A stretch of DNA of 64,000 nucleotides from assembly GCF_000025725.1 (NCBI RefSeq), contig NC_013943.1, positions 248,001 to 312,000 on the forward strand. The letters run 5' to 3'. This document shows, piece by piece, positions 36,133 through 52,464 of the stretch. Origin of the DNA: Denitrovibrio acetiphilus DSM 12809. Lineage in GTDB: Bacteria > Chrysiogenota > Deferribacteres > Deferribacterales > Geovibrionaceae. The notes beneath the pieces were generated by a model. The model ran no database searches. It was not told the origin of the DNA and saw only the letters and a program-made list of their open reading frames with translations. Positions within the stretch are counted from its first letter, which is position 1; every line of letters begins with the position of its first letter. The position numbers and the translations under genes are program-made.

Positions 36133-36178
36133 TTAACAATTTTTTGTTGTTGACACTATACCTCAGTTGGTTTATTTA
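36133..36178 (+). promoter_or_regulatory. Promoter(s) of the DAHP synthase attenuator transcript
   Basis: TTGACA at 36150-36155, a 17-nt spacer and TATTTA at 36173-36178. This would start transcription almost at the leader ATG (36185), making the leader peptide leaderless. An alternative is TTAACA (36133-36138), an 18-nt spacer and TATACC (36157-36162), giving a 5' leader of about 15 nt. Confidence 0.6.
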
Positions 36179-36184
36179 AACAGT

Positions 36185-36268
36185 ATGAATAACAGGGAAA
36201 ATTTCGGGCTCAACTTTTTTGGCTATTTTTTTTACTTCTTTTTTAACACTGAAGGTGTAGCCGTCTAA
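36185..36268 (+). CDS. Phe/Tyr-rich attenuation leader peptide
   Basis: A 27-codon ORF starting MNNRENFGLN and containing the run FFGYFFYFFF. Eight of 27 residues are Phe and two are Tyr. It is followed within 33 nt by a terminator hairpin and then by the DAHP synthase gene. This is the layout of the E. coli pheA leader: slow translation at Phe or Tyr codons should favour the antiterminator. No Shine-Dalgarno sequence is visible before the ATG. Confidence 0.82.
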   Translation: MNNRENFGLNFFGYFFYFFFNTEGVAV

Positions 36269-36271
36269 GTC

Positions 36272-36342
36272 CGACCTGTAACAACAAAATATGCAAACAG
36301 GCCGCAGCGGCTTCACTTTTGAAGCTGTATGCGGCTTTTTTT
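36272..36342 (+). terminator. Attenuator (antiterminator 36272-36304, terminator 36301-36342)
   Basis: Terminator: GCCGCA (36301-36306) pairs with TGCGGC (36330-36335), with an inner 6-bp stem GCTTCA/TGAAGC around a CTTT loop, and seven T residues at 36336-36342. Competing pairing: CCTGT (36275-36279) with ACAGG (36297-36301), extendable through flanking G-C pairs to 36304. This takes up the 5' arm of the terminator. Confidence 0.8.
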
Positions 36343-36391
36343 ATGCCCAAATTCGGACATGATAGGTAATTAATATAAACGGAGGATCAAA

Positions 36392-37408
36392 ATGATCGTA
36401 GTAATGAAGATCGGAGCATCACAGGAAGAGCTCAATAATGTCACTCAGGCAGCAGAAGAGCTGGGTTTCTCTTCCCACGTTATCGAAGGGAAAGAGCGCA
36501 ATGTCGTCGGACTGGTCGGCATCGCAGGTCAGCGAGACAAGATGAATGTTATCGGGCAGCTCGCAGGTGTTGAAAACATTGTCCCAATCAGCAAACCATA
36601 TAAGCTTGCAAGCCGTGAGGTGAAGCCGGAGCCAAGCATAATCGATGTTTGCGGTGTAAAATTCGGCGGTGAAAACATACCTGTTATAGCAGGACCTTGC
36701 TCTGTGGAAAATGAAGAGGGGGTCATCAAAACGGCAGAATTCATCAAAGCGGCAGGAGCACAAATGCTCCGCGGCGGTGCCTTCAAACCACGTACATCAC
36801 CATACTCTTTCCAGGGGCTTGAAGAAGACGGGCTTAAAATACTCGCAAAAGCCAGAGAAGCAACAGGGCTTCCCATTGTCACAGAGGTCACAAACCCGAG
36901 ATATGTTGATATGGTATACAAATACGCAGACATGTTTCAGGTTGGTGCAAGGAACGTGCAAAACTTCGCACTCCTCTCTGAACTGGGGAAAACTGACAAG
37001 CCTGTCCTCCTGAAAAGAGGTATGTCCACCACAATAGAAGAATACCTCAACGCAACTGAATACATCCTCTCAGAAGGGAACAAAAACGTAATCCTTTGTG
37101 AGCGGGGACTAAGAACATTTGAAACAGCTACAAGAAACACCCTTGATATCAGCGCTGTACCTGTTATCAAAGAGAAATCTCACCTGCCTATCATCATTGA
37201 CCCAAGCCATGCAGCAGGTCACTGGCAATATGTTGGTCCACTTTCAAAAGCTGCTGTTGCAATCGGCGCAGACGGACTTATAATAGAGGTGCACCCTGAG
37301 CCGGAGAAAGCATGGTCAGACGGCGCACAGTCGCTGACACCAACACAGTTCCTCAAACTTATGGGAAGCATGCGCTCAATAGCTCTTGCAATAGGCAGAA
37401 CTATATAG
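36392..37408 (+). CDS. aroF: 3-deoxy-7-phosphoheptulonate synthase (DAHP synthase)
   Basis: A 338-residue enzyme of the short (TIGR01361, KDO8P-like) type, catalysing PEP + erythrose-4-phosphate to DAHP, the first step of aromatic amino acid synthesis. An N-terminal ferredoxin-like regulatory domain (about 1-70, [17 protein letters not shown]) precedes the barrel. The barrel has [28 protein letters not shown] and the metal/active-site region [12 protein letters not shown]. In relatives the N-terminal domain mediates feedback inhibition by Tyr or Phe. The upstream Phe/Tyr leader peptide and terminator suggest transcriptional control as well. SD GGAGG precedes the ATG. Confidence 0.95.
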
Positions 37409-37476: not shown

Positions 37477-37523
37477 CTCCCTGCTATCCCCTTTGGCAAC
37501 AAGGGGGACTCAGGGAGATTTTT
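37477..37523 (+). terminator. Terminator after DAHP synthase
   Basis: Stem CTCCCTG (37477-37483) pairs with CAGGGAG (37511-37517), and an inner stem CCCCTT/AAGGGG closes the hairpin. A T-rich tract follows at 37519-37523. Confidence 0.7.
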
Positions 37524-37584: not shown

Positions 37585-37613
37585 TTGACAAGACAGAGGT
37601 TTTTCGATATTTT
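37585..37613 (+). promoter_or_regulatory. tRNA-Phe promoter
   Basis: TTGACA (37585-37590), a 17-nt spacer and TATTTT (37608-37613), about 25 nt before the mature tRNA 5' end. Confidence 0.65.
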
Positions 37614-37637: not shown

Positions 37638-37713
37638 GCCCAGGTAGCTCAGTCGGTAGAGCAGGGGACTGAAAATCCCCGTGTCGGTGGTTCGATTCCG
37701 CCCCTGGGCACCA
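37638..37713 (+). tRNA. tRNA-Phe (GAA)
   Basis: A 76-nt cloverleaf. The acceptor stem GCCCAGG/CCTGGGC is followed by A and encoded CCA. The D-arm is in AGCTCAGTCGGTAGAGC. The anticodon stem GGGGA/TCCCC encloses loop CTGAAAA with anticodon GAA. The T-arm contains GGTTCGATTCC. It lies just downstream of the Phe-regulated DAHP synthase and borders an accessory region, a common integration context. Confidence 0.97.
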
Positions 37714-52112: not shown

Positions 52113-52135
52113 AAATGGAGGCGGTGGGAATCGAA
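52113..52135. repeat. att-type direct repeat (ssrA-proximal copy)
   Basis: Identical to 50718-50740. It overlaps the T-arm and acceptor 3' strand of ssrA, a frequent integration site for tyrosine recombinases. Confidence 0.85.
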
Positions 52136-52464
52136 CCCACGTCCGAAGTATGTTCAGTCAAAGGTACTACATGTTTAGTCTTTGCATTAATCTTAGCTTT
52201 ACGGCAGGGGCAAAGACGACCCAATCGAAAAGAGCATCCTCTTAGTTTTGCCTGATGCCCGAGGCATCACACCAGACTATCCCACTAAAGTTTGTGCCCT
52301 CTACAAGACCGCGGGAGTGCCTTCGCAGAGGACATCGCCACTAATTAAGCAGCAGCGAGTGTGTGTTCGTTGTTTGCAATTACTTGCGTTGGCTTGCTAA
52401 CCGGGTAGCCGCCCCGGACATGCACCTAGAGACCTACGATCCCCCGTCGAAACCGTGCGCCCCC
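52116..52464 (-). ncRNA. ssrA: Transfer-messenger RNA (tmRNA)
   Basis: A one-piece tmRNA. The 5' end GGGGGCGCACGG pairs with the 3' acceptor strand CGCCTCC (one G-U pair), and the T-arm GGTTCGATTCCC is at the 3' end. The tag reading frame on the minus strand (52377 to 52345) encodes ANNEHTLAAA followed by TAA. The terminal CCA does not appear to be encoded. It rescues stalled ribosomes together with SmpB, whose gene is about 0.7 kb away. Confidence 0.93.

Follow-up and report, generated by a model that had tools for sequence, protein, structure and literature searches.

A probable leaderless Phe/Tyr attenuator upstream of the DAHP synthase gene aroF in Denitrovibrio acetiphilus and its relatives

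Described leader-peptide attenuators and the aroF locus of D. acetiphilus

Attenuators of the E. coli pheA type are represented in Rfam by the family Phe_leader (RF01859). The attenuators of C. glutamicum are reportedly leaderless, as Neshat et al. are said to have described in 2014. In this species, a leader with the residues Phe-Tyr-Phe (aroR) is located in front of aroF and is reported to respond to a shortage of Phe but not of Tyr (PMC4046766; PMC11802643; PMC7356990). Leaderless leader peptides with mapped 5' ends are described for Streptomyces lividans (PMC8079986) and for trpL of Sinorhizobium meliloti (PMC7298713). A further paper lists, for Shewanella aroF, an attenuator that senses tRNA-Tyr (PMC2659441), and the uORFC-13-1 motif in front of aroF of Acholeplasma is reported only from Acholeplasma and environmental sequences (PMC8632094).

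We analyzed a window of 64,000 nucleotides (contig NC_013943.1, positions 248,001 to 312,000) from the D. acetiphilus genome (3,222,077 bp, one contig), in which aroF is preceded by a short leader ORF encoding MNNRENFGLNFFGYFFYFFFNTEGVAV (27 codons; Table 1). Codons 11–20 of this leader read FFGYFFYFFF, a run of ten residues of which nine are aromatic. As in the aroR-aroF arrangement of C. glutamicum, a leader with Phe/Tyr codons lies directly in front of a DAHP synthase gene, whereby the likeness is one in the way of working: D. acetiphilus belongs to a different phylum, carries the ten-residue run instead of Phe-Tyr-Phe, and has a leader whose response is a prediction, whereas aroR is reported to respond to Phe and not to Tyr. 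With the S. lividans and S. meliloti leaders it would share a transcript that begins at the leader start codon as well as the attenuation of amino acid genes; those leaders concern Trp, Leu, Ile, Thr, and others, belong to other phyla and have mapped 5' ends, whereas we infer the 5' end in D. acetiphilus. Phe_leader, too, controls aromatic synthesis by attenuation with a leader peptide rich in Phe, but membership in RF01859 was rejected, since the D. acetiphilus leader scored 17.2 bits (E 1.6) and thus below the gathering score of 55. In the uORFC-13-1 motif, aroF is likewise preceded by a terminator and a short ORF that holds Phe codon(s); this ORF has a ribosome binding site and at least one Phe (PMC8632094), whereas the D. 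acetiphilus leader has no Shine-Dalgarno (SD) sequence and a long aromatic run.

A literature search, in which few subscription journals were covered, found among the papers listed no aromatic leader attenuator in front of aroF or a DAHP synthase gene for Deferribacter, Denitrovibrio acetiphilus, or Geobacter. The mechanism is classical and its leaderless form is known elsewhere, and the D. acetiphilus aroF attenuator is new as far as the literature was searched. An earlier reading of the locus, made from the sequence only, had overrated its novelty: both leaderless leader peptides (PMC8079986; PMC7298713) and, in C. glutamicum, a Phe-Tyr-Phe leader preceding aroF (PMC4046766; PMC11802643) had already been published.

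Table 1. Features of the aroF leader region, in window coordinates
Feature	Position	Strand	Basis and remarks
-35 hexamer TTGACA	36150..36155	+	sequence; first base 35 nt before leader ATG
proposed -10 hexamer TATTTA, weak match	36173..36178	+	putative; 17-nt spacer behind TTGACA
leader peptide ORF, 27 codons + stop	36185..36268	+	sequence; ATG 36185, TAA 36268; proposed transcription start = first base
region 1, partner of region 2 in the protector hairpin	36191..36239	+	predicted fold, -23.5 kcal/mol
region 2, spans leader stop codon	36251..36280	+	predicted pairing
region 3, partner of region 2 (antiterminator) or of region 4 (terminator)	36296..36319	+	predicted; 2:3 duplex -22.4 kcal/mol
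intrinsic terminator: 3:4 hairpin 36300-36336 + U-run to 36342	36300..36342	+	-24.5 kcal/mol
Shine-Dalgarno GGAGG of aroF	36381..36385	+	sequence
aroF, DAHP synthase with N-terminal ferredoxin-like domain	36392..37408	+	profile matches and solved relatives

The leader ORF with its aromatic run, the terminator, and the DAHP synthase gene were all found where the sequence-only reading had placed them, as was TTGACA with its 17-nt spacing. The second hexamer is weak and matches TATAAT at 3 of 6 positions only, because of which the consensus promoter scan did not list a promoter for the leader; the same scan also picked up the inner part of the leader terminator. The leader ATG follows about 7 nt behind the proposed -10 element. 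In agreement with the earlier claim, no SD-like motif is present in the 20 nt before it, and the anti-SD pairing amounts to -2.4 kcal/mol before the leader versus -9.5 kcal/mol before aroF. The aroF product matches NCBIfam NF006421 with 505.9 bits (cut-off 335) and carries the Pfam domains DAHP_synth_1 and DAHP_snth_FXD, and the related solved structures are annotated as DAHP synthase. For the second DAHP synthase gene, which lies closely behind another coding frame, no recognizable leader was found in the 19 genomes of families f1–f5 (see below) that were read; in D. acetiphilus, a prephenate dehydratase match is located about 1.4 kb upstream of this gene.

Two RNA genes of the window were noted in addition. 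The tRNA-Phe(GAA) gene (37638-37713), which is the sole full-length match in the genome, is located on the same strand 229 bp behind aroF, and therefore the tRNA that would be sensed lies beside the sensor's target. Read by eye, a promoter of its own (TTGACA 37585-37590, TATTTT 37608-37613) seems to drive it, and aroF is followed by a terminator-like hairpin at about 37477-37523. The same arrangement of aroF and tRNA gene recurs in 7 of the 8 genomes from genera g1 and g4; the distance of the tRNA gene to aroF is 3–5 kb in G018, G022, and G023 and at least 20 kb in G006, G011, G013, and G015. A tmRNA gene with the tag ANNEHTLAAA is encoded on the minus strand (52116-52464).

Conservation and predicted alternative folds of the leader

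The phylum search for aroF relatives comprised 50 genomes and yielded matches in 48, whereby the families are labelled f1–f10 and D. acetiphilus belongs to f1. In all 24 genomes of f1–f5, a near copy of aroF is preceded by an aromatic leader ORF and, 22–37 nt behind the stop of this ORF, a terminator, and in each of these loci (24/24) the stop codon lies inside region 2. The comparison of leader ORFs, which had been proposed as a check of the sequence-only reading, found the Phe/Tyr codons conserved and thereby did not refute that reading. Pfam and NCBIfam models gave no match to the leader peptides tried. In the three loci of f10, which we take to be Chrysiogenota-like, the leaders end in FFWQYYFR, YFWQYYFFR, and YFWQFYFFS and thus hold Trp, Tyr, and Phe together, and a terminator between leader and aroF is again present in 3/3. 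In these loci (L024, L025, and L026), the stretch from leader to aroF holds two terminator-like hairpins in tandem, which suggests a pair of attenuation points; for L025 the search chose the second terminator, and the first was set by hand for the swap and masking analyses. Among the 23 genomes of f6–f9, the upstream region was read in six f7 genomes, in which no aromatic leader was seen, while the analysis of L051–L054, L057, and L058 comprised a listing of ORFs. In L055 (G033), direct repeats of some tens of bases occur in the 260 nt before the DAHP synthase gene, and aroF of L003 (G019) holds one in-frame TAG, which is either an assembly error or a mark of a broken gene.

The mutually exclusive hairpin of the earlier claim was recovered as four regions with alternative pairings. 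When the 211-nt leader of D. acetiphilus was compared with 200 dinucleotide shuffles, only 3 folded equally well or better (z -2.26), and a 1:2 hairpin as good as its own was obtained in 1 of 200 shuffles. This hairpin stood above the shuffles in all 12 f1 loci (at most 3/200 as good), where paired changes are seen as well, e.g., GGATTC/GAATCC in L004 versus GGGCT/AGTCC in L001. By the same shuffle test it was not above chance in any of the nine loci of f2–f4, and the outcome was mixed elsewhere (24, 6, and 38 of 200 shuffles as good in f5; 5, 11, and 3 of 200 in f10). For the 2:3 duplex of D. acetiphilus, none of 500 shuffles of region 2 paired as well. Across 27 loci, the own pairs of regions 2 and 3 reached a mean of -22.0 kcal/mol compared to -17.9 kcal/mol for cross-family swaps, and in several loci, e.g., L003, L007, L015, L016, L024, and L025, swaps of region 2 or 3 revealed no excess for the own pairs. 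In D. acetiphilus, no foreign region 3 (0/24), but 9 of 24 foreign region 2s, paired as well as its own.

The folds were also predicted with a ribosome masking parts of the leader. With the ribosome at the stop codon, the terminator 5' arm was paired upstream at 0.00-0.17 in the 24 f1–f5 loci and at 0.08-0.25 in f10, with the ribosome in the middle of the run at 0.54-0.88 in all 27 loci, and with the ribosome at the last aromatic codon the antiterminator was weaker (0.07-0.81). The corresponding values for D. acetiphilus are 0.04 (stop), 0.81 (mid-run), and 0.57 (last aromatic codon), and 0.16 when no ribosome is present. In these models, the position of the ribosome, at the stop or inside the run, flips the predicted leader fold. 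The predicted antiterminator and the terminator are mutually exclusive, and a ribosome at the stop prevents the former, with weaker effects in some loci. In complete transcripts, the terminator was dominant in every ribosome state (0.60 or more). Since the terminator is thus favored at equilibrium, antitermination would have to be kinetic.

Start sites of aromatic leaders upstream of aroF and trpE

Leaders outside genus g4 number 19, and in each of them TTGAC[A/T] starts either 35 nt (12 loci) or 36 nt (7 loci) ahead of the leader ATG. This ATG is the single in-frame one in 16 of the 19; where several exist (L009, L019, and L023, as well as several Trp leaders and leaders from the order of Geomonas), the one at promoter distance was chosen. 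The spacing is kept although the 29 nt behind the -35 hexamer show little likeness between families (identity 0.36 versus 0.31 expected), and of the -10 element the first T is kept in 15/19 and the A in 18/19 leaders. The base before the leader ATG is a pyrimidine in 19/19, whereas it is A in all five SD-type leaders of g4. Fifteen of the 19 have no SD-like motif. L011 carries AAGGG 4–5 nt before the leader ATG; in L016, L017, and L020, GGAG is located 13–15 nt before the ATG and upstream of the proposed -10 element, and therefore would not be part of an RNA made from that promoter. The mean anti-SD pairing is -1.5 kcal/mol for the 19 leaders, -6.4 kcal/mol for the g4 leaders, and -10.1 kcal/mol for 24 aroF genes. 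Genus g4 (5/5) has a longer 5'UTR with an SD, whereby the hexamer-to-ATG distance is 50–63 nt and GGAG or GAGGA precedes the ATG. L002 of g4 and L003, which belongs to the genus of D. acetiphilus, have a 33-base promoter stretch in common, behind which L002 has extra DNA with the SD. The leaders of the three f10 loci have longer 5'UTRs, too. As a control, the promoter-to-ATG spacing was found in none of 50 window ORFs of at least 120 aa; 26 of these 50 have an SD motif, a count that is a rough lower bound since the control ORFs were taken at longest-ORF starts. The comparison thus supports, by spacing and initiator base, a putative leaderless start of the leader RNA as the sequence-only reading had proposed it, and the SD-like motifs in 4 of the 19 leaders count against it.

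A survey of trpE covered 23 loci in f1–f5 (G014 gave none). At 19 of them a leader with a Trp run is present, with its ATG 34–37 nt behind TTGAC[A/T] or TTTACA, and in all 19 the ATG directly follows a pyrimidine and a terminator is present within 140 nt. Among the loci without such a leader, L197 ends 108 nt and L199 ~268 nt upstream of trpE. The leaderless-type Trp leader is kept in all five g4 genomes. In D. acetiphilus (G000) the Trp leader before trpE (L159, 1177-1239) reads MNYKERNRNLTNWWWRLTYI; TTGACA precedes its ATG by 35 nt, and a terminator follows the leader. Judged by this layout, it is a second putative attenuator of the leaderless type in this organism. A survey of leuA, pheA, ilvB, and hisG in 10 genomes, in which 400–450 nt before the matched domain were read (mostly coding in the case of pheA), revealed no convincing attenuator.

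From other phyla 80 aroF loci were listed, 78 of which had enough upstream DNA. An aromatic leader with a terminator was found at 18 of the 78, whereas the reverse strand gave none and neither did any of ten shuffles. Among the leaders read in this set, those of the Geobacter-like loci L061, L063, L066, and L102 fit the leaderless layout. A leaderless start as a general rule for aromatic leaders in all phyla was rejected, as L083 and L125 show an SD-like stretch and others no clear promoter. In the order of Geomonas propionica, which is presumably the Geobacterales, 34 aroF loci were read, namely 30 listed of the 37 matching genomes and four from another search. TTGAC is located 35–38 nt before an in-frame leader ATG in 33 of these 34 loci (exception L233), an SD-like motif occurs in 2/34, and a pyrimidine directly precedes the ATG in 32/32 scored leaders (L233 and L263 left out). 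Many leaders of this order resemble FYFWYGFYFRPSAR, with codons for Phe, Tyr, and Trp.

Proposed mechanism, alternatives and implications

We consider it likely that the aroF leader of D. acetiphilus attenuates transcription by way of the ribosome and that its RNA is leaderless, starting at or within 1–2 bases of the leader ATG. Through the Phe/Tyr-rich leader, a shortage of Phe or Tyr probably turns on the enzyme with which aromatic amino acid synthesis begins. Transcription would begin at, or a base or two from, the A of the leader ATG, and the first ribosome would bind directly at the 5' end of the RNA, with no need of a Shine-Dalgarno sequence. With ample charged tRNA-Phe and tRNA-Tyr the ribosome would reach the stop codon and cover region 2, so that RNA polymerase would halt at the 3:4 terminator and leave an RNA of ~158 nt. 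When these charged tRNAs are scarce, the ribosome would stall in the aromatic run and cover region 1, whereupon regions 2 and 3 could pair, the terminator would be delayed, and aroF would be transcribed. If no ribosome is loaded, the 1:2 hairpin would protect the terminator.

It might be that the same attenuator is not leaderless, with transcription starting further upstream and ribosomes loading on a 5'UTR with a weak or no SD. The weak -10 element missed by the consensus scan, the longer 5'UTRs of g4 and of the three f10 loci, and the SD-like motifs in 4/19 leaders would agree with such a start. However, the spacing fixed at 35–36 nt and the pyrimidine before the ATG, both in 19/19 leaders, argue against it, as does the position of GGAG in L016, L017, and L020 upstream of the proposed -10 element, and we regard it as improbable. 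Far less probable still, in our view, is an additional role in trans for the leader peptide or for the RNA that ends at the terminator, as reported for rnTrpL/peTrpL of S. meliloti. Trans activity of an attenuator RNA and peptide is on record (PMC7298713), and the predicted terminated RNA is of the same general kind as rnTrpL, but the tests run gave no sign of a second target, and leader lengths and sequences vary strongly between families. Hardly credible is a chance Phe-rich ORF in T-rich DNA ahead of a constitutive terminator: T-rich composition alone does read as Phe, but the aromatic run and the stop codon within region 2 are kept in 24/24 relatives, and the 18 leaders at 78 loci of other phyla contrast with none on the reverse strand or in any shuffle.

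A leaderless attenuator in front of aroF would extend leader-peptide control of the aromatic pathway entry enzyme to lineages for which no report was found. It also offers a natural comparison, as nearly the same attenuator is apparently leaderless in three genera of one family and SD-led in the fourth; therefore, the role of leaderless initiation in attenuation would be directly testable. Only tentatively, and with more doubt than confidence, we suggest that a fusion of promoter and start codon may be selected in these attenuators. In Deferribacterota-like genomes as well as the order of Geomonas, the leaderless aromatic leader before the type I-beta DAHP synthase might then have been long kept or have arisen several times, whereby one genus would have swapped to an SD-led start with the attenuator retained. 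In the order of Geomonas, the Phe/Tyr/Trp leaders would let one leader read and integrate all three end products of the pathway.
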